In this document: piece after piece, positions 6,939 through 18,664 of the stretch
Layout of the letters: each line of letters starts with the position of its first letter
Numbering within the stretch: position 1 is the first letter of the stretch
Source: Lachnospiraceae bacterium
Lineage (GTDB): Bacteria > Bacillota > Clostridia > Lachnospirales > Lachnospiraceae
Reading direction: 5' to 3'
DNA: 55,839 nt
Assembly (NCBI GenBank): GCA_015056925.1
Contig: SVFJ01000012.1
Span: 1-55,839 of the forward strand
Notes under the pieces: generated by a model
Databases searched by the model: none
Told to the model about the DNA's origin: nothing
Seen by the model: only the letters and a program-made list of their open reading frames with translations
Made by a program: the position numbers and the translations under genes

Positions 6939-7409
6939 ATGGTAGAAATGACTACAAGAGTATTTGGAAAGATTGCAATCGAAGAGGACAAGATTATCCG
7001 ATTTGAACAGGGGATTCTGGGATTCCCGGATTTAAAGGATTTTACATTAATCTATAATCTGGATAAGGGAAATGATTCAGGTATCAAATGGTTACAGTCC
7101 TTGCAGGAACCGGGCTTTGCGATGCCTGTTATGAATCCTGAGTTAGTGGTGGAAGATTACTGCCCTGAGTTTGATAAGGAATATTTAAAGCCTTTAGGCG
7201 AGAGACTTGAAGAGGACGATACTCTTTTATTTGTAACAGTTACGGTACCAAAGGATATAACCAAGACAACTGTAAATTTGAAAGCTCCGATTATTGTGAA
7301 TGCTGACACCAGAAGGGCGGTTCAGCTGATTAGTGACGATGAGAAATATAGCATTAAATATGCCATTTACGATAATCTGATGGCAAAACAGCATGACGAC
7401 GAGAATTAG
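6939..7409 (+). CDS. fliW: Flagellar assembly factor FliW
   Basis: FliW is a cytoplasmic protein that binds both flagellin and CsrA. When flagellin is exported, free FliW sequesters CsrA and lifts translational repression of flagellin (established in Bacillus subtilis). The 156-aa product has the family hallmarks FGKIAIEEDKIIRFEQGILG near residues 9-28, GFPDL, and the C-terminal half with NLKAPIIVNADTRRAVQ. csrA follows 18 nt later, the conserved fliW-csrA pair. ATG at 6939 follows a GGAGTG site. The seven flagellin genes downstream make this pair a central regulator here. Confidence 0.93.
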   Translation: MVEMTTRVFGKIAIEEDKIIRFEQGILGFPDLKDFTLIYNLDKGNDSGIKWLQSLQEPGFAMPVMNPELVVEDYCPEFDKEYLKPLGERLEEDDTLLFVTVTVPKDITKTTVNLKAPIIVNADTRRAVQLISDDEKYSIKYAIYDNLMAKQHDDEN

Positions 7410-7427
7410 AGAAGGCAGGTGAATGAT

Positions 7428-7658
7428 ATGCTGGCATTATCCAGAAAAAAGGGTGAAGCCCTTATGATTAACAATGACATAGAGATTACGGTGCTGGAAA
7501 TCAAGGGAGAGCAGGTTAAGATTGGAATCAATGCTCCAAAGTCCGTACCCGTGTATCGTAAAGAGGTATATATTCAGATACAGGAGGCAAATCAGGAGGC
7601 CTCTAATGTGGCAGGTATTGAACAGCTTGCAAATCTTTTAAAAGGAAACAAGGCATAA
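7428..7658 (+). CDS. csrA: Translational regulator CsrA
   Basis: CsrA is a dimeric RNA-binding protein recognising GGA in hairpin loops and blocking ribosome access. The 76-aa product begins MLALSRKKGEALMINNDIEI and contains VKIGINAPKSVPVYRKEVY, both near-universal in the family; the conserved Arg of R-K-E-V/I-Y is present. The start is set at ATG 7428, five bases after AGGTGA, not at the GTG at 7419. Likely targets are the GGA hairpins in the flagellin leaders found at 11249, 13519, 15309, 18671 and 24354. Confidence 0.95.
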   Translation: MLALSRKKGEALMINNDIEITVLEIKGEQVKIGINAPKSVPVYRKEVYIQIQEANQEASNVAGIEQLANLLKGNKA

Positions 7659-10916: not shown

Positions 10917-11060
10917 ATGGAACGCCCGATGAAAAGAAACAAGGATGGGAATATCGTTTATATGGGTAAGGGGACCATTCTTGTATCTTTAAAAGATATG
11001 ATTAGAGATAGTAGAGGAAGTGTGCCTTACGGTACACTTCCTTTTGCTATATATGCATGA
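10917..11060 (+). CDS. Possible 47-aa small protein after the fliS operon
   Basis: ATG at 10917, TGA at 11058; the product starts MERPMKRNKDGNIVYMGKG and ends in PYGTLPFAIYA. AGAGGGA lies about eight bases before the ATG, and codon use resembles the neighbours. The intrinsic terminator at 11016-11045 sits inside the last third of the frame, which argues against translation through it. No family recognised. Confidence 0.25.
   Translation: MERPMKRNKDGNIVYMGKGTILVSLKDMIRDSRGSVPYGTLPFAIYA
11016..11045 (+). terminator. Intrinsic terminator ending the flaG-fliD-fliS operon
   Basis: An 11-bp stem GGAAGTGTGCC/GGTACACTTCC (one G-T pair), TTAC loop, followed by TTTT. It separates the chaperone operon from the hag1 leader. 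Confidence 0.8.
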
Positions 11061-11112: not shown

Positions 11113-11231
11113 ACAATTTCATAATGCTTACCAATGGTAAAGCAAACGGCCGGGTGGCCAACCGGTCACGCTTTACAATCCCAGGGTAGGACAAGGCGAA
11201 GGAAAGGTAAAAAGGCCTTGTGCTTAAGGGG
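11113..11231 (+). promoter_or_regulatory. Conserved flagellin leader element, copy 1 (hag1)
   Basis: Contains the shared box ACAATT...CTTACCAA (11113-11134). Next is stem P1 GTAAAGC/GCTTTAC (11137-11143 with 11170-11176) enclosing CGGCCG (11147-11152). Last is a second helix: CCC (11180-11182) with GGGG (11228-11231), inside which ACAAGGC/GCCTTGT (11191-11197 with 11215-11221) pairs. The same order of parts occurs before hag2 and hag4 with different but still complementary stem sequences. Function unknown. Confidence 0.6.
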
Positions 11232-11248
11232 AGAACACTACTAATAAC

Positions 11249-11288
11249 GCGGCAAGGATGTCGCACGATTTTATTTTTCAAGGAGGAA
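11249..11288 (+). promoter_or_regulatory. Candidate dual CsrA site in hag1 leader
   Basis: Stem GCGGC/GTCGC with loop AAGGAT (11249-11264) presents GGA in the loop and reads CAAGGATGT, a near-consensus CsrA site. The Shine-Dalgarno region CAAGGAGGAA (11279-11288) is a second GGA site. This matches the BS1/BS2 arrangement known for B. subtilis hag. Confidence 0.65.
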
Positions 11289-11294
11289 ATTATT

Positions 11295-12935
11295 ATGGTA
11301 GTACAGCACAATTTAATGGCGATGAACGCAAACAGAATGTTAGGTATCACAGCAGGTACAGTTGCAGGCTCAACAGAGAAGTTATCTTCAGGTTATAAGA
11401 TTAACCGTGCAGCAGATGATGCAGCAGGTCTTTCTATCTCTGAGAAGATGAGAAAGCAGATTAGAGGTCTTGACCAGGCATCTGCAAATGCAGAGGATGG
11501 TATTTCAGCAGTACAGACTGCAGAAGGAGCTTTACAGGAAGTTACTGATATGTTACAGAGAATGAACGAGTTAGTTGTACAGGCAGCTAACGGAACAAAC
11601 TCTACAACAGACCGTCAGTATATTCAGGACGAGATTGATCAGTTAGTAACTGAAATCGATCGAGTTGCTGAGACAACAAAGTTCAATGAGACATACCTCT
11701 TAAAGGGCGATGACAGAAAGGCTTCTACATTAGCTTACACAGCTAACTATGCTGTTACTTATACTCAGAATCTGGGAAGTAATAGTGGAACTGTAGACTT
11801 TAAGGTTGATTATGTTGGAGATAAGAATCTTTATATTGTTGATGCAGGTATTGTAGATGAGAACGAGAGCTCACCTTTATCAGCAGCAGTCATTGGAAAT
11901 GGTGAAGATATCACACAGTACTTAAGTGCTGCTACAACAGGTGCAAATGGCGCAATTTCAGATATTGAAATTGATAACGATTATTTAGCATTTGTTAATG
12001 CTACATTGGATGTCGGAACAGGTGCAACATATAAAATGGATGATGGTGTTATTACATCTTTGAAAGAAACATTTATTCTCGATACAGAGACAAATGAGAT
12101 TATTCACCTTGATGCTGGTGTGGATTTAGCAGATTACATGCAGAATGTAGAGCTTAATGCCGCAGGCACTGGCGTAACATTTGCTGAGATGAAGGAACAG
12201 TACAGACTTCTTGCTGAAGCTTGGACTACAAAAGAAAATGGAACTCAGATGACAGGTGTTACTGTTGATACAACAGGTGTTAAAATTGAAGATGCAGATT
12301 TCATAACAAATGAGTCTATGCGTACTCTTTACGATGCAGATGGTAAGGAAGTATCAGGCATCGCATTGAATAAGTATTTCAATGATAAGGGTGCTTACAT
12401 CGGCGGCTTATATGCTGATTCACAGGCTACCAAGGCTATCCAAAGTGATAATGCAACAGCTGATTATTATATTGGTGATTATACAACTCTTAATTCTGCA
12501 GAGGTAGCAGCTGACTTAAGCTTTAGCTTACATGTTGGTGCTGATTCTGCTAGAACAAATAAGATTATCACTAATATTCAGGCTATGTCTGCAGCTTCTC
12601 TTGGTATTGATAAGCTTAAGAGCTCTTTAGTTGGTATCGTGGATGAGACAGGTGATAACGCAACAGATGCTATTGATGTAATTGCAGCAGCATTACAGCA
12701 GGTATCTACACAGCGTTCAGCACTTGGTGCTGTTCAGAACAGATTAGAGCACACGATTAAGAACCTCGACAATATCGTTGAGAATACACAGGCAGCTGAG
12801 AGCCAGATTCGTGATACAGATATGGCAGAAGAGATGGTTACATACTCTAACGCTAATATCCTTCAGCAGGCTGGTCAGTCAATGCTTGCACAGGCTAATC
12901 AGGCGAACCAGGGCGTTCTTTCACTTCTTGGTTAA
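11295..12935 (+). CDS. hag: Flagellin 1
   Basis: Filament subunit of 546 aa, larger than B. subtilis Hag (about 300 aa) because of a long central domain. D0/D1 N-terminal (residues 1-145) with [20 protein letters not shown] and [17 protein letters not shown], and C-terminal D1/D0 (about 450-546) with [18 protein letters not shown], are canonical and include the TLR5-contact region. It starts at ATG 11295; an in-frame GTG at 11220 lies in the leader. Unlike the six others, it has Ala rather than Cys in GIS(A/C)VQ. The central domain keeps DADGKEVSG followed by a second related turn. Probably glycosylated by the downstream island. Confidence 0.95.
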
Positions 12936-12969
12936 TGCGTAGTCGTCTAAATTGAAAATGGTAAGAGGA

Positions 12970-12995
12970 GGGGCCGGCTTTTGCTGGTCCCTTTT
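12970..12995 (+). terminator. Intrinsic terminator after hag1
   Basis: GGGGCCGGC/GCTGGTCCC stem (9 bp with G-T pairs), TTTT loop, TTTT tail. Confidence 0.75.
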
Positions 12996-13060
12996 GCAAG
13001 GTTGCACATTTTGACATAATTCTGATAATTAAATAACGAGATAAAAAGTTGTAAAAATTG

Positions 13061-13089
13061 TTGCAATTATTCGCACAATAATATATAAT
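13061..13089 (+). promoter_or_regulatory. Candidate sigma-A promoter upstream of hag2
   Basis: TTGCAA (13061-13066), 17-nt spacer, TATAAT (13084-13089): a near-perfect housekeeping promoter. It lies about 65 bp before the sigma-28 promoter and would read into the same leader. Confidence 0.5.
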
Positions 13090-13150
13090 TTTAAATACAG
13101 AACGAAGTACCATATCGTTAATAAAAAATAAAATTTTTTTGTAAACTGAC

Positions 13151-13178
13151 TAAAGTAGAGGGAACTTTGGGTCGATAT
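13151..13178 (+). promoter_or_regulatory. sigma-28 promoter far upstream of hag2
   Basis: TAAA (13151-13154), 16-nt spacer, GTCGATAT (13171-13178). Predicted start near 13186, about 380 nt before the hag2 ATG; a terminator lies between (13286-13341). Confidence 0.7.
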
Positions 13179-13185
13179 ATGGTAT

Positions 13186-13341
13186 GAAAGCAAACAAGCA
13201 AGACTAATGGAGTAGGGAATGCTTGTAGGTAATTAGGGAGTATAAGGGATATAACCATAAATATATAGTTATAGGATTAATATATAAGGACAGTCATAGT
13301 ATCGCTAGGAGTAGGCGGTTTATGAGATGTTCTTATTTTTT
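13186..13341 (+). ncRNA. Candidate sigma-28-dependent, GGA-rich small RNA
   Basis: Bounded by the sigma-28 promoter at 13151-13178 and the terminator ending at 13341, about 155 nt. It has no open frame with a credible ribosome site. It contains seven GGA motifs (13209, 13216, 13237, 13247, 13274, 13288, 13308), each preceded as AGGA or ANGGA; the last sits in the 9-nt loop of the terminator hairpin. Such density is typical of CsrB/RsmZ-type CsrA-sponges. The purine-rich composition raises the chance rate, and the transcript is only predicted. It could equally be the first part of a long hag2 leader. Confidence 0.4.
13286..13341 (+). terminator. Intrinsic terminator between sigma-28 promoter and hag2
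   Basis: Stacked helices AAGGACA/TGTTCTT, TCATA/TATGA and ATCGC/GCGGT (17 bp in all), loop TAGGAGTAG, then TTTTTT (13336-13341). Confidence 0.65.
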
Positions 13342-13394
13342 ATATCATTTTGATATATAACAGCAAGCCATCAGGCAAAGCTGATTATATATAT

Positions 13395-13507
13395 ACAATT
13401 GAATAAAGATACTTACCAAAGGTGTATGACGAGAGTCAAGGCGGCCGACTTTAGCTTCGGCATACACAGTCCCATAGATATTCTAACAAGGATTGGAAAG
13501 ATATGGG
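13395..13507 (+). promoter_or_regulatory. Conserved flagellin leader element, copy 2 (hag2)
   Basis: ACAATTGAATA (13395-13405) and CTTACCAA (13412-13419). P1 is GTGTATG/CATACAC (13422-13428 with 13461-13467) enclosing GGCGGCCGA (13440-13448). P2 is CCCATA/TATGGG (13471-13476 with 13502-13507). The stems pair perfectly although their sequences differ from those of copies 1 and 3. The upstream TACAAT could alternatively be a -10 hexamer. Confidence 0.6.
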
Positions 13508-13518
13508 GAGCAAAAGGG

Positions 13519-13558
13519 TGGCAAGGATGCCAGCTTAAAACTTATTTTCAAGGAGGAA
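13519..13558 (+). promoter_or_regulatory. Candidate dual CsrA site in hag2 leader
   Basis: TGGC/GCCA stem with loop AAGGAT (13519-13532) and a second site at the ribosome-binding CAAGGAGGAA (13549-13558), the same layout as hag1. Confidence 0.6.
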
Positions 13559-13565
13559 ATAAATT

Positions 13566-15212
13566 ATGGTAGTACAGCACAATTTAATGGCAATGAACTC
13601 TAACAGAATGTTAGGAATTACACAGGGATCTTTATCAGGCTCAACAGAGAAGTTATCTTCAGGTTATAAGATTAACCGTGCAGCAGACGATGCAGCAGGA
13701 TTATCAATCAGTGAGAAGATGAGAAAGCAGATTAGAGGTCTTGATCAGGCATCTGCAAACGCAGAGGACGGTATCTCTTGTGTACAGACAGCAGAAGGTG
13801 CTTTACAGGAAGTTACTGATATGTTACAGAGAATGAACGAATTAGCAGTACAGGCAGCTAACGGAACAAACTCTACAACAGACCGTCAGTATATTCAGGA
13901 CGAGATTGACCAGTTAGTAACTGAGATTGACCGTGTTGCTGAGACAACAAAGTTCAACGAGACTTACCTCTTAAAGGGTGATAGCACAAAGGCTACAACA
14001 AAGGCTTATACAGCTAACTATGCAGTTACTTATACAACAAACCTTGGAAGCAATGGTGGTGCAGGTAAGGTTGTAAATAAGATTGATTATGTAGGTGATG
14101 CAAATATTTACATGGTATCTAAGGATATTCTTACAGCAAACACAAGCTCACCTAAGACAGCAGATGTTATTGGTAATGGTGATGATATTACAAAGTATCT
14201 TGCAACTGCAACAACAGGTAAGAATGCATCTGTTACAGCTGCAACAGTAGATGTTGCTAATTATCTTTCATTTACAAATGCAACATTAGATGTTTCTGGT
14301 AATAAGTATGCTATCTCAGATGGCGTTATAACATCAGCTGGTTCAAAGGATACTTATATCCTTGATACAGAGACAAGCGAAATTATTCGTATTGCAGGTG
14401 GAGAAGATTTATCGGCATATATGAAGAATGTAGAGGATGATGGAACTAATGTTACTTTCGCAGAGATGAAGGACCAGTATAGAATCCTTGCAGAGGCTAA
14501 GATTGGAGGTACTGCAGATAGTGTTGCAGCTAATGATACTACAGATGTAGCAATAGCAGTTACAGAGTTCAAGACAAATGAGTCTATGAAGACGCTCTAT
14601 GATGCAGACGGTAAGGAAGTATCAGGCGTTAAGTTAAATGATTACTTTGATGGTAACGGTAACTATGTTGGCGGATTATACTCTGATTCACAGGCTACAA
14701 AGGCTGTTTTAAGTGATGATGATGCAGCAGCTACAACAGCTGATAAGAAGATTAGCACATACACAACAAAGAATGAAGCAGAAGTAGCAGCAGATCTTAC
14801 ATTTGCTCTTCATGTAGGTGCAGACTCAGCTAGAACAAACAAGATTCAGACTAATATCCAGTCTATGTCTTCAGCAGCTCTTGGTATCGATAAGCTTAAG
14901 AGCACAGCAGTTGGTATCGTTGATGAGACAGGTGACAATGCAACGGATGCAATCGATGTAATCGCTAACGCATTACAGCAGGTATCTACACAGCGTTCAG
15001 CTCTTGGTGCTGTTCAGAATAGATTAGAGCATACAATCAAGAACTTAGACAACGTAGTAGAGAATACACAGGCAGCTGAGAGCCAGATTCGTGATACAGA
15101 TATGGCAGAAGAGATGGTAAGATACTCTAACGCTAATATCCTTTCACAGGCAGGTCAGTCAATGCTTGCACAGGCTAATCAGTCTAACCAGGGCGTATTA
15201 TCACTTCTTTAA
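13566..15212 (+). CDS. hag: Flagellin 2
   Basis: 548-aa filament subunit. The N-terminal D0/D1 ([20 protein letters not shown]) and the C-terminal 100 residues are nearly identical to flagellins 3 and 4, while the central domain (about 145-430) is diverged. It has Cys in EDGISCVQ, unusual because most flagellins lack cysteine. It carries the central pair DADGKEVSG and DGNGNYVGG. It is preceded by the longest regulatory stretch of the array (630 bases with two promoters, a terminator and the leader element) and followed 141 bases later by flagellin 3, with which it is probably cotranscribed. Confidence 0.95.
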
Positions 15213-15262
15213 TTAGATGATAGTACAAGGATAACAATTACATAGTGATTAATTAAATGTAT

Positions 15263-15296
15263 CGTCTGCCGGACATCTTATGATGTCCGGCGGACG
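15263..15296 (+). other. 15-bp hairpin between hag2 and hag3
   Basis: Bases 15263-15277 pair with 15282-15296 (one G-T pair) around a TTAT loop. The hairpin is followed by AAATAAAA, not a T-run. It is better read as an intercistronic processing or stabilising hairpin that lets transcription continue into hag3. Confidence 0.6.
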
Positions 15297-15308
15297 AAAT
15301 AAAACCAA

Positions 15309-15348
15309 ACGGCAAGGAAGCCGTAACAAATTTTTTCATGGAGGAAAT
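15309..15348 (+). promoter_or_regulatory. Candidate dual CsrA site before hag3
   Basis: ACGGC/GCCGT with loop AAGGAA (15309-15324) and CATGGAGGAAATG at the ribosome site (15337-15349). This gene lacks the upstream P1/P2 element, so the CsrA hairpin is the part retained. Confidence 0.6.
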
Positions 15349-15353
15349 GAATT

Positions 15354-16979
15354 ATGGTAGTACAGCACAATTTAATGGCAATGAACTCTAACAGAATGTT
15401 AGGAATTACACAGGGCTCTTTATCAGGCTCAACAGAGAAGTTATCTTCAGGTTATAAGATTAACCGCGCAGCAGACGATGCAGCAGGATTATCAATCAGT
15501 GAGAAGATGAGAAAGCAGATCAGAGGTCTTGATCAGGCATCTGCAAATGCAGAGGATGGTATCTCTTGTGTACAGACAGCAGAAGGTGCTTTACAGGAAG
15601 TTACTGATATGTTACAGAGAATGAACGAATTAGCAGTACAGGCAGCTAACGGAACAAACTCTACAACAGACCGTCAGTATATCCAGGACGAGATTGACCA
15701 GTTAGTAACTGAGATTGACCGTGTTGCTGAGACAACAAAGTTCAATGAGACATATCTCTTAAAGGGTGATAGCACAAAGGCTACAACAAAGGCTTATACA
15801 GCTAACTATGCAGTTACTTATACAACAAATCTTGGAAGCAACAATGCAAATGTTAAGAAGAAAGTTGATTATATTAGCGATGCTAATGTATACATGGTAG
15901 ATGCAGATATTAAGACTGCTAATACAAGCTCGCCTATGACAGCGGATGTTATAGCTAAGGGTGATGATTTTACAAAGTATTTGACAACGGCTGAGGCTGA
16001 CAAGAATGCAACAGTTAAGAATACTTTGGCATTTGATACTACTAATTATGTAGCATTACAGAATGCAACATTGGTTGCAAATAAGATGAAGATTGCAACG
16101 GATGGTGTAATAACATCTGATGGTGGTAACGATACATATATTCTTGATACAGAGACAAATGAAGTAATTCGTGTTGCAGCAGGAGAGGATTTATCTTCTT
16201 ACTTAAAGAATGTAGAAGGAGATGCGGCTACTAATGGTGGAAAGCTTTCATTTGCAGAGATGAAGGACCAGTACAGAGTGCTTGCAGAGGTTGATGGTGC
16301 AACAACAGTTACTACTGATTATACAGGAACAGCATTAACAACTACTGATTTCAAGATTAATGAATCTATGAAGACTCTGTATGATGCAGATGGTAATGAG
16401 GTATCTGGCGTTAAGTTAAATGATTACTTTGATGGAAACGGTAACTATGTAGGTGGATTATATGAAGATTCACAGGCTACAAAAGCTGTTACTAATACAT
16501 CAACAGACGCAACATACATTGGTAACTATACAACAAAGAACGAAGCAGACGTAGCAGCAGACCTTACATTTGCTCTTCATGTTGGTGCAGACTCAGCTAG
16601 AACAAACAAGATTCAGACAAACATCCAGTCTATGTCTTCAGCAGCTCTTGGTATTGATAAGCTTAAGAGTACAGCAGTTGGTATCGTTGATGAGTCTGGT
16701 GACAACGCAACAGACGCTATCGATGTAATCGCTAATGCATTACAGCAGGTATCTACACAGCGTTCAGCTCTTGGTGCTGTTCAGAACAGATTAGAGCATA
16801 CAATCAAGAACTTAGACAACGTAGTAGAGAATACACAGGCAGCTGAGAGCCAGATTCGCGATACAGATATGGCAGAAGAGATGGTAAGATACTCTAACGC
16901 TAATATCCTTTCACAGGCAGGCCAGTCAATGCTTGCACAGGCTAATCAGTCTAACCAGGGCGTATTATCACTTCTTTAA
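15354..16979 (+). CDS. hag: Flagellin 3
   Basis: 541-aa filament subunit, the closest relative of flagellin 2: the first about 145 residues and last about 110 are essentially the same, down to long identical DNA stretches, while the centre differs. It has Cys in EDGISCVQ and the central DADGNEVSG and DGNGNYVGG pair. No promoter is seen in the 141-base gap, so it probably shares the hag2 transcript. The near-identical ends of hag2-hag4 are natural substrates for recombination that would swap or delete central domains. Ends at a strong terminator. Confidence 0.95.
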
Positions 16980-17004
16980 TTAGAATATAAGATAATATAG
17001 TAGA

Positions 17005-17032
17005 GGGGCTTCCATTTTGATATGGAAGCCCC
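17005..17032 (+). terminator. Intrinsic terminator after hag3
   Basis: An 11-bp perfect stem GGGGCTTCCAT/ATGGAAGCCCC with a 6-nt loop, then TTATTTG. It also lies between the converging ends of hag3 and the rpn-like gene. Confidence 0.75.
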
Positions 17033-17062
17033 TTATTTGTTTTGTGTCTTATTGCTCCGTGA

Positions 17063-18007
17063 TTAATTCTTAAGAGATGTAGAATATTCATTAAGGAGCT
17101 GTTGGCGATATTCTTTATCTTCGATAGCATGTTGTAAGTCTTCTAAACGATTGTTTTTAAGAAGCTTTGAATAGAGTTCGTTTAGCTCTTCACGACCTTC
17201 TTCACGACCTTCCTCGCGTCCTAATTCGAGTCCTTCTTCACGACCTTCCTGCATCATAAGTTTTCTGTATTTCTTTTCATTAAACTCTGTTAATAACATA
17301 CTTTGCACCTCGCTTCTGCATTTGACGAGTATATCGGTTAATATACCCTTGCTTATACAAGTATCAATTGCTTTGTCAATCGCAGCCTTAAGGGAATATC
17401 TTTTGTCGAGGTTGTTATTTACCTCAGCAATAAAATAAGCATAATCATGTAGTCTCTTGCAAGTATTGAGAAGCTCCTTGTTATGGCCGTAGTTGATGTT
17501 ATACATTTTAGCACGACATTCGAGTGTGGGAACTTCGTCAGCTTTTAACAAATCAAAAGCATCTGAGAGTTTGAGTTCCATTTCATCGGGGACATTTTCT
17601 CTACCATTATAGAAGATGATATATTGAGGAGTGGGAAGTTTCACTAGCTTCGTCCCATATATATTGGCTTCTATTTCGGCGATATGAGCTTCATATAATT
17701 TCGCAAAATACATAAACCCACGAATCGGCATGTTAGGATTATATGTTGACTGCTGTTCATAGAGATTTAAGGAAGAAGAAAACATGAAAGAGACATCGTT
17801 CTTCATGGATAGATAAATTACATCCTCTAATGTGGTGATTTCCATGTCCTCAATATTTGTGTAAGCTGTATGATTGACAGCATTGTACAAATCCAATAAA
17901 TCTTTCTTGCTCGAGAATACCCTCTGGAAGAGATGATCCTTGTACTTGCGTCTAACCTTAAGTTTACTTAATAGCGAATTGATATTTGATTTAGTTTTTT
18001 GTTTCAT
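17063..18007 (-). CDS. Rpn-family (PD-(D/E)XK) nuclease/putative transposase
   Basis: 314-aa protein of the recombination-promoting nuclease family. Family members are PD-(D/E)XK-type DNA nucleases that stimulate RecA-independent recombination. Seen here: the N-terminal KDHLFQRVFSSKKDLLDLYN, the middle PTPQYIIFYNG, and the typical C-terminal low-complexity EGREEG repeats (residues about 257-278) before a short helical tail. It is transcribed against the flagellins, from its own promoter at 18024-18052. Its insertion between flagellins 3 and 4 suggests acquisition. A second family member is at 48614-49570. Confidence 0.8.
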   Translation of the reverse strand: MKQKTKSNINSLLSKLKVRRKYKDHLFQRVFSSKKDLLDLYNAVNHTAYTNIEDMEITTLEDVIYLSMKNDVSFMFSSSLNLYEQQSTYNPNMPIRGFMYFAKLYEAHIAEIEANIYGTKLVKLPTPQYIIFYNGRENVPDEMELKLSDAFDLLKADEVPTLECRAKMYNINYGHNKELLNTCKRLHDYAYFIAEVNNNLDKRYSLKAAIDKAIDTCISKGILTDILVKCRSEVQSMLLTEFNEKKYRKLMMQEGREEGLELGREEGREEGREELNELYSKLLKNNRLEDLQHAIEDKEYRQQLLNEYSTSLKN

Positions 18008-18023
18008 GATTATTCTTTACTCC

Positions 18024-18052
18024 ATTATAAAATATTTATACTCTTTTCACAA
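18024..18052 (-). promoter_or_regulatory. sigma-A promoter of the rpn-like gene
   Basis: On the minus strand TTGTGA (18052-18047), 17-nt spacer, TATAAT (18029-18024). Start would be about 10 bases before the ATG. Confidence 0.6.
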
Positions 18053-18157
18053 CGAGGATTTTGCTAGGATTGTGGATATGAGTACAGATTTGAACTTAGA
18101 AGTGCGCATATCAGTTGTTCTCATAGAAGGTATCATACATACTGTGAGAAGTCTACT

Positions 18158-18191
18158 TGAAATGTAAAAAATGGGTATTTTTTACATTTCA
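18158..18191. repeat. Perfect 14-bp hairpin with A/T arms
   Basis: TGAAATGTAAAAAA (18158-18171) and TTTTTTACATTTCA (18178-18191) around TGGGTA. T-runs on both strands would allow a bidirectional terminator. A second small inverted repeat, CACTTA/TAAGTG, follows at 18190-18208. It separates the rpn-like gene from the hag4 promoter. Confidence 0.5.
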
Positions 18192-18239
18192 CTTACGTGT
18201 TTTAAGTGAATACAAGCGTGCAAATAAATATAATTTGGC

Positions 18240-18267
18240 TAAAGTATAAGGGGATTGTTGTCGATAT
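18240..18267 (+). promoter_or_regulatory. sigma-28 promoter far upstream of hag4
   Basis: TAAA (18240-18243), 16-nt spacer, GTCGATAT (18260-18267), identical in layout and -10 sequence to the promoter upstream of hag2. Predicted start near 18275. Confidence 0.7.
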
Positions 18268-18274
18268 AAAAGGA

Positions 18275-18508
18275 AAGATAGTTCAGTTGTTTCATGCGGA
18301 AAAAGTATGATGAGATAGTTGAAATTGTCATAATAAATGTGAATTATACCAATTTTTTGCAAAATATATTGCAATTTAGGAGTAAAAGCAGTATAATTTA
18401 AATGACTATAGTAGTCAATGTTTTAGGGTTTTATGAGTAGTATACAAAATGATATGTAAGGGCACTTTTGAGAATCGTGTTATTGGGTTCTGAAGGAGTG
18501 GCCTTTTT
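18275..18508 (+). ncRNA. Candidate sigma-28-dependent transcript upstream of hag4
   Basis: Runs from the sigma-28 promoter to the terminator ending at 18508, about 235 nt. No credible coding frame. It has four GGA motifs (one is the AGGA in the terminator arm), fewer than the hag2 counterpart, and no clear sequence similarity to it. It may be a small RNA or an attenuated leader. Confidence 0.3.
18458..18508 (+). terminator. Intrinsic terminator between sigma-28 promoter and hag4
   Basis: AAGGGCACTTTT pairs with the GGAGTGGCCTT arm (one mismatch, G-T pairs), with AGAA/TTCT extending inward, then TTTTT (18504-18508). Confidence 0.55.
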
Positions 18509-18575
18509 GCTTTGTCTTATTGTATATATTGCGCATACAATTGCGTTAATATAGAGGGAAAGCAAATGCTTTCTT

Positions 18576-18664
18576 ACAATTGAATATTTATACTTACCAA
18601 CGTAAAGAGAATCAGGCGGCCGATGATAATCTTTACAAACCCTTAAGTTTCTACATATTAAGGG
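18576..18664 (+). promoter_or_regulatory. Conserved flagellin leader element, copy 3 (hag4)
   Basis: ACAATTGAATA (18576-18586), CTTACCAA (18593-18600), P1 GTAAAG/CTTTAC (18602-18607 with 18631-18636) enclosing GGCGGCCGA, then P2 CCCTTAA/TTAAGGG (18640-18646 with 18658-18664). This is the most compact copy and gives the clearest minimal form. Confidence 0.6.

Follow-up and report, generated by a model that had tools for sequence, protein, structure and literature searches.

What does a structured RNA do ahead of some flagellin genes of a cluster and not of others, and which part of it is being kept? The question is raised by the leaders of three flagellin genes (hag1, hag2 and hag4) of a Lachnospiraceae bacterium (assembly GCA_015056925.1). 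They lie in a window of 55,839 nucleotides (nt), the whole contig SVFJ01000012.1 (G000:C23 in our numbering) of a 3.5 Mb draft genome, which contains a flagellar cluster. The original prediction, made from the letters of the window, had described a three-copy element with two stems, P1 and P2, upstream of a CsrA-type hairpin, with P1 enclosing CGGCCG, and had offered as functions an mRNA-stabilising 5' end, a ligand-sensing RNA or a platform for CsrA/FliW or another protein. We find that the conserved feature is a hairpin with a self-complementary hexamer in its loop, that it is a sense-strand RNA placed before flagellin genes, and that its loop stays self-complementary through sequence change. 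Judging from these sequence features, the element is probably a kissing-loop dimerisation hairpin of flagellin mRNAs. Selected RNA structure and, as far as tested, the lack of a known family were rightly foreseen, and the functions offered miss the self-complementary loop.

All three leaders show the common order of an ACAATT.. box, CTTACCAA, P1, P2, a GGA hairpin and the ribosome site, and the arms of P1 and P2 pair as originally described (Table 1). The CGGCCG centre did not survive as a shared feature. Aligning six hag1-type cores ruled it out: in hag1 these letters (11147-11152) overlap the inner stem on its 5' side and are a non-homologous stem arm. The homologous hag1 loop holds TGGCCA, and CGGCCG is the loop hexamer of hag2 and hag4. 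The difference between TGGCCA and CGGCCG is a matched change at both ends, so the palindrome is kept. In hag2 the hexamer lies within the apical loop of the centroid fold, and its first and last letters are paired together in the single best fold. The whole leaders fold better than shuffles, with z scores of -2.93, -2.98 and -3.82 (hag1, hag2, hag4), and the signal was less clear for the cores alone (-2.15, -1.10 and -2.62).

The hag1-type core was found by pattern search in seven of the 38 genomes of the genus sample, the window's own included in both counts; a flagellin match was present in all 38. The six relatives are Lachnospiraceae metagenome-assembled genomes, two of them from dairy cattle rectum and goat rectum. 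A flagellin start lies downstream of the core in all six, and by eye the preceding sequence ends like the window's flgN-like gene in five, the sixth contig being too short. The six-pair inner stem varies (GGCCGG/CCGGTC, GACTGG/CTGGTC, GGCAGG/CCTGCC, GGCCAG/CTGGTC) and closes the loop G-TGGCCA-A in hag1 and five relatives. Over six sequences the 13 pairs of the core are intact (78/78 cells), and three pairs changed on both sides, a count equalled by 6 of 500 shuffles. P2 covaries as well: RNAalifold predicts 16 pairs, of which 8 show a two-sided change in one or more of six orthologues. The P2 loop retains a purine stretch with AGG that is perhaps a CsrA-type site. A model trained on hag1 and five relatives (R1), from which hag2 and hag4 were excluded, placed hag2 second (E 0.0037) and hag4 third (E 0.0074) among the seven matches listed in the window. 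None of the seven falls in the leaders of hag5 or hag6, in agreement with the absence noted before. R1 also matches the hag1 hairpin antisense (11133-11176, minus strand, E 0.06), as expected from a near-symmetric hairpin with a palindromic loop. In the hag3 leader (15234-15300) an ACAATT box precedes what looks, by eye, like an almost perfect hairpin, some 15 pairs long and with TTAT as its loop; the R1 match there is weak (15234-15289, E 1.1), and this is perhaps a degenerate copy without the palindrome. We call the element of hag1, hag2 and hag4 class A; two other copies in the genus are L034 (AA-CGGCCG-A) and L035 (GG-CTGCAG-A). Four weak R1 matches in a family sample of 397 genomes, two of which belong to the window's genus, had no adjoining flagellin and were dropped as chance.

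Class A is one branch of a larger set of flagellin-leader hairpins. Many of the 80 flagellin leaders examined in the genus, some of them clipped at contig ends, carry a hairpin of a second type, class B, laid out as TTAATAACC, variable stem, loop, variable stem and GGATATTA. In 27 copies RNAalifold finds compensatory changes in 10 of 16 pairs. The stems are paired in 93.3% of cells, 67 cells are doubly changed against 22.9 in shuffles, and the covariation score is 0.515 against a maximum of 0.130 when slid. These doubly changed cells, the pairs of the hag1-type cores and the covariation of P2 all support the selected RNA structure that had been claimed. A second model, R2, found 58 sites in 25 of the 38 genus genomes and none in the window's own; in the family sample it matched one genome, a congener. 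Four weaker copies in known leaders (L070, L080, L088, L103) bring the set to 62, extracted after 19 reverse-strand rows or weaker second matches (rows 63-81) had been left out. Sixty of the 62 stand 65-469 nt ahead of a flagellin start (L162 being masked after six residues), and the remaining two, L170 and L171, reach contig ends. Homologues upstream of flagellin genes are therefore present in relatives, as the original prediction implied. An ACAAYTRAATA-like box is common to class A and class B leaders; within leaders L034-L113 it occurs in 44 of the 80 genus leaders, where shuffles give 1.25; outside the genus, 4 of the 60 leaders examined have it. A further recurring leader type, CCGATATATATACTGTAAACGGAGTTACAGAAA..TTCAAGGGGAATG..GGGAAAGTTGCTTGG..GGATGTCC..GGGCTGC, in which no palindromic loop was seen, occurs in L093, L094, L096, L100, L111, L113, L178 and L185.

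The tips of the class B hairpins vary in their letters and keep their self-complementarity. At least nine different palindromes occur: GGCGCGCC (41 of the 62 tips), GGCGCC (9), TGGCGCCA, CGGCGCCG and AGGCGCCT (two each), and, as singletons, TGGGCCCA (within a 14-mer), TGCGCGCA, GCGCGCGC and TTCCGGAA; a further singleton is GCCGGC, and L103, whose own tip is degenerate, was scored on a different palindrome next to it. Elsewhere the palindrome is kept as TGGCCA, CGGCCG or CTGCAG (class A) and as CCTAGG, CCCGGG or TCTAGA (other genera). One genome, G002, has three kinds among its flagellin genes. The central 18-mers were compared for 58 distinct copies of class B: 57 contain a palindrome of 6 nt or longer (10.9 expected; the sole miss is L177) and 47 contain one of 8 nt or longer (2.6 expected). 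Copies lacking the GGCGC core behave alike, four of five having a palindrome of at least 6 nt (1.06 expected). Hairpins whose loop is self-complementary over about 6 nt thus occur in hag1, hag2, hag4 and 57 of 58 distinct class B copies, L103 by its non-homologous palindrome. In a loop-blind test, where hairpins were picked from flanks and stem and the loop letters were unused, 27 of 30 hairpins from the genus were palindromic, where 5.25 were expected, and so were 7 of 12 from other genera, where 2.35 were expected. Judged by eye, the non-palindromic ones (3 and 5) resemble some other hairpin or AT-rich noise; they were kept in the counts. These numbers bear on a reading close to one of the functions first offered, namely that the hairpin is a 5' stabiliser, an RNase processing site or an attenuator and the palindrome is incidental. 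Of 35 class B copies with at least 150 nt upstream, 11 have a sigma-28-like promoter no more than 120 nt from their start, a position in which a 5' hairpin could shield the mRNA. Other copies follow csrA-like genes and precede flagellins, a natural setting for processing. Such roles, however, leave the palindromes of 57/58 distinct tips and 27/30 loop-blind hairpins unexplained, and we consider them an improbable account of the element.

Could the palindrome work in the DNA instead? Inverted repeats with a palindromic centre look like sites of a dimeric regulator or a recombinase. Yet the oppositions in class B stems are G-U in 105 cases and A-C in 11 (p 2e-20 if the cells were independent, which they are not), and the sense strand folds better than the antisense in 49 of 58 copies. 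The G-U excess and the better sense folding indicate an element that acts as sense-strand RNA. The arms, moreover, vary freely, and the matched sigma-28-like promoters sit upstream of the element. We therefore rejected a DNA-level site on the G-U/A-C count and give it very little credence.

A self-complementary loop in an RNA needs a partner. A second copy of the loop hexamer is absent from 59 of 60 class B leaders and from those of hag1, hag2 and hag4, so that no internal pairing partner was found in them; this leaves an identical loop on a second molecule as the natural partner. Calculated self-duplex energies are -9.1 kcal/mol for TGGCCA and -10.7 kcal/mol for CGGCCG, within a range from -5.2 (TCTAGA) to -17.5 kcal/mol (GGCGCGCC). 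Since the loop letters change while self-complementarity stays, the loop is hardly a fixed recognition word. The same observation makes a ligand sensor unlikely, because the loop letters differ between homologues. Conserved boxes (ACAATT..ATA and CTTACCAA) next to a conserved fold would suit a riboswitch, but there is no Rfam relative, no letter of the loop is constant throughout the set, and no alternative terminator or anti-ribosome-site fold was recognised, although no systematic search for one was made. We rejected this reading for want of a constant pocket, and it seems to us scarcely credible. Known families were sought with Rfam: none was found in the window at gathering scores, and at relaxed scores the hag1 leader and 20 related leaders yielded no more than weak matches to unrelated families. 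As far as tested, this bears out the statement that no known riboswitch or leader is involved.

Hairpins of a similar kind extend beyond the genus. Several of the 60 leaders from other genera have a TAATA..TATTA hairpin tipped by CCTAGG, CCCGGG, TCTAGA or GGGCCC, and others are without it. Twelve such hairpins, L070 from the window's genus and the other eleven from outside it, went into model R3, which gave 13 matches in 11 of the 397 family genomes. Each of the 13 is palindromic at its tip (2.76 expected), and 12 sit 56-255 nt ahead of a flagellin start, none having been found for the thirteenth (L260). In a class sample of 245 genomes R3 had no match, in a search that had no known positive and leaves absence elsewhere unproven. 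A third type in other genera has a 9-nt loop AG-CGTACG-G a little upstream of the ribosome site (L195, as AG-CGCGCG-G, L201, L214, L230 and L232); by eye, L235 has the identical loop on a shorter stem, and L205, from another genus, has ACGGTATGGCCAACCGG, near the hag1-type loop.

Several observations weigh against the dimerisation reading. The class A and class B hairpins may be of separate origin, and the case for class A depends on three hexamers (TGGCCA, CGGCCG and CTGCAG); L038 contains CGGCCG without a clear closing stem established, and a genus-wide R1 search at E 0.1 passed only the hag1 copy of the window genome. In class B, 41 of 62 tips are identical (GGCGCGCC), the copies are not independent, most tips share GGCGC by descent, and L103 entered both the 57 and the 27 through a palindrome outside the homologous place. 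R2 and R3 include loop letters, so that their matches are biased to GGCGC and CCTAGG. Nine of the 13 R3 matches are training sequences and the four new ones are all CCTAGG, so that they show specificity of place more than they test the palindrome independently; R3 also failed to pick up G337, G351 and G385, family genomes that have the hairpin in their leaders. Many flagellin leaders, including those of hag3 and hag5-7, are without the element. A generic scan for palindromic loops of 8-10 nt found them in 22 of 93 leaders against a shuffle mean of 21.2, which is no enrichment, and the case therefore rests on homologous positions and not on the rarity of such hairpins. Loops of 9 nt like that of the dimerisation initiation site (DIS) of HIV-1 are likewise not significant, either in other genera (6/60 leaders; shuffle mean 2.5, maximum 8) or in the genus (5/80; shuffle mean 4.2). 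Finally, the self-duplexes of TCTAGA, CGTACG and CTGCAG are weak (-5.2 to -7.7 kcal/mol).

Table 1. Features of the hag1, hag2 and hag4 leaders and of the flagellin control genes in the window.
Feature	Coordinates	Strand	Basis
fliW	6939-7409	+	Pfam FliW; open reading frame
csrA	7419-7658	+	Pfam CsrA; open reading frame
hag1 box ACAATTTCATAAT and CTTACCAA	11113..11134	+	unpaired in predicted core fold; mostly invariant in six hag1-type cores
hag1 P1 (GTAAAGC/GCTTTAC, 11137-11143/11170-11176) and inner stem (11148-11153/11162-11167)	11137..11176	+	predicted fold; pairs kept 6/6
hag1 self-complementary hexamer TGGCCA within 8-nt loop GTGGCCAA	11155..11160	+	sequence, alignment, fold
hag1 P2 (CCC/GGGG), its inner stem (ACAAGGC/GGCCTTGT) and a purine loop containing AAGGA (possible CsrA-type site)	11180..11231	+	RNAalifold, six orthologues
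hag1 GGA hairpin GCGGCAAGGATGTCGC, probable CsrA site	11249..11264	+	sequence
sigma-28-like promoter TAAAGTAGAGGGAACTTTGGGTCGATAT upstream of hag2 element	13151..13178	+	pattern scan
hag2 element; P1 (GTGTATG/CATACAC, 13422-13428/13461-13467)	13395..13473	+	R1 match
hag2 self-complementary loop hexamer CGGCCG	13442..13447	+	sequence; fold
hag2 P2 (CCCATA/TATGGG), AAGGA between arms	13471..13507	+	sequence; leader fold
hag2 GGA hairpin TGGCAAGGATGCCA, probable CsrA site	13519..13532	+	sequence; leader fold
sigma-28-like promoter TAAAGTATAAGGGGATTGTTGTCGATAT upstream of hag4 element	18240..18267	+	pattern scan
hag4 element; P1 (GTAAAGA/TCTTTAC, 18602-18608/18630-18636); inner stem ATCA/TGAT (18611-18614/18624-18627)	18576..18644	+	R1 match; fold
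hag4 hexamer CGGCCG in 9-nt loop GG-CGGCCG-A	18617..18622	+	sequence; fold; loop scan
hag4 P2 (CCCTTAA/TTAAGGG)	18640..18664	+	sequence; leader fold

The cluster comprises flgK, a flgL-like gene, fliW, csrA, flaG, fliD, fliS, a flgN-like gene (28.0 bits, under the Pfam cut-off of 30.5) and seven hag genes; fliW and csrA are the pair controlling flagellin translation. A minus-strand open reading frame between hag3 and hag4 (17063-18007, 314 amino acids) has no Pfam match. The promoters predicted by pattern scan for hag2 and hag4 would place the start of transcription upstream of the element and not downstream of it, and the scan matched none ahead of the hag1 element. Just upstream of the latter, at 11016-11045, a hairpin GGAAGTGTGCC..GGTACACTTCC followed by TTTT was seen by eye and missed by the terminator scan; it may lie at the 5' end of the hag1 transcript or terminate the flgN operon. 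In the relatives L004 and L005 a sigma-28-like -10 lies upstream of a hairpin resembling it.

All three leaders have, after P2, a GGA hairpin (GGCAAGGATG in hag1 and hag2) upstream of a GGA-containing ribosome site. These motifs make the leaders putative CsrA targets, and csrA and fliW are present in the cluster. A CsrA platform stays among the candidate functions, because GGA hairpins adjoin the element downstream. In class B, a gene with a CsrA motif (MLMLTVPKEEYLMIG..) ends 2-73 nt ahead of the element in at least 15 of the 35 copies with upstream context, and 9 of the 35 have neither promoter nor CsrA-motif gene by these patterns. Three of the 15 genes were searched against Pfam and all belong to the CsrA family. 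In L068, L072, L079, L101, L060, L097 and others this CsrA-motif gene, a divergent one, ends directly ahead of the class B hairpin and its flagellin gene; from other genera we claim one csrA context, L227. CsrA is a dimer, and these neighbours, along with the nearby GGA hairpins, would suit a hairpin bound by a dimeric RNA-binding protein (CsrA, a paralogue or another), with the palindrome mirroring the symmetry of the protein. Against this, the reader of one hairpin loop requires no inverted symmetry there, most tips are without GGA, the core motif of CsrA, and a fixed reader would hardly tolerate letters that change completely (CCTAGG, GGCGCC, TCTAGA, TTCCGGAA). We regard such a binding site as unlikely.

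How, then, could dimerisation hairpins serve flagellin mRNAs? A stem of freely changing sequence would display a self-complementary loop of at least 6 nt. Flagellin mRNAs are very abundant in a motile cell, and two of them could pair loop to loop as a kissing complex, perhaps maturing into an extended duplex. The dimer would keep two leaders side by side, upstream of the CsrA-type GGA hairpins and ribosome sites. Most likely, dimer formation would be coupled to CsrA/FliW control or to mRNA lifetime, and flagellin output would come to depend on mRNA concentration; whether the effect passes through CsrA bridging, stability or localisation is conjecture. With somewhat less than even confidence, we further propose a new bacterial family of leader RNAs, in which Lachnospiraceae flagellin mRNAs would self-pair by DIS-like kissing loops, the palindromes of individual genes would define separate self-recognition groups, and dimerisation would gate CsrA/FliW control. 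If true, natural RNA dimerisation would act on an ordinary, abundant cellular mRNA, and flagellin control would have an extra RNA-based layer in gut commensals whose flagellins meet host immunity. The many natural palindromes are a ready-made mutational series, making the idea directly testable.

Among the matches listed from the open-licence literature, no title or opening of an abstract dealt with flagellin-mRNA dimerisation or with this leader family. The hag leader of Bacillus subtilis is a related system, and to our knowledge no self-complementary hairpin is known in it. That leader has CsrA sites and belongs to a CsrA-FliW-flagellin circuit (PMC6529632); it shares with ours the GGA hairpins and ribosome site of a flagellin leader, and here fliW and csrA lie in the same cluster, whereas our element forms a domain of its own, ahead of the GGA sites. 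In Campylobacter jejuni the flaA mRNA is localised and titrates CsrA, and is thus likewise a flagellin mRNA acting as a regulatory molecule under CsrA-FliW (PMC4894983); the phylum is another one, and a dimerisation hairpin is not named in the abstract or section titles of that paper. Work on the flagellins of Roseburia and Eubacterium examined sigma-28 promoters and mentioned csrA, and the words 'hairpin' and 'untranslated' are absent from its text (PMC3720852).

Our element has the sequence features of a kissing-loop dimerisation site and appears to work like one. Two flagellin messages held together would find an analogy in the paired genomes of retroviruses before packaging, and the bicoid mRNA is another palindromic or kissing RNA dimer. 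The HIV-1 DIS has a nine-nucleotide apical loop whose six-nucleotide palindrome is flanked by three purines (PMC4066764), and the hag4 loop resembles it, with 9 nt, two purines before the hexamer and one after. Purine-flanked 9-nt loops also occur in L034, L035, L195, L201, L214, L230 and L232, a form not enriched over shuffles. In contrast, the hag1 loop has 8 nt and class B loops are longer, and here we deal with a bacterial mRNA leader, many palindromes and a predicted dimerisation; we do not claim homology. Functional RNA oligomers have been called rarely observed, programmed homodimers being well known in retroviruses (PMC7357161). Ty1 RNA, the hatchet ribozyme and the guanidine-II riboswitch are not bacterial flagellin leaders, and the dimers of the latter two are crystal structures; as we propose for the flagellin mRNAs, all three form homodimers by loop pairing (PMC7357161; PMC5454406).

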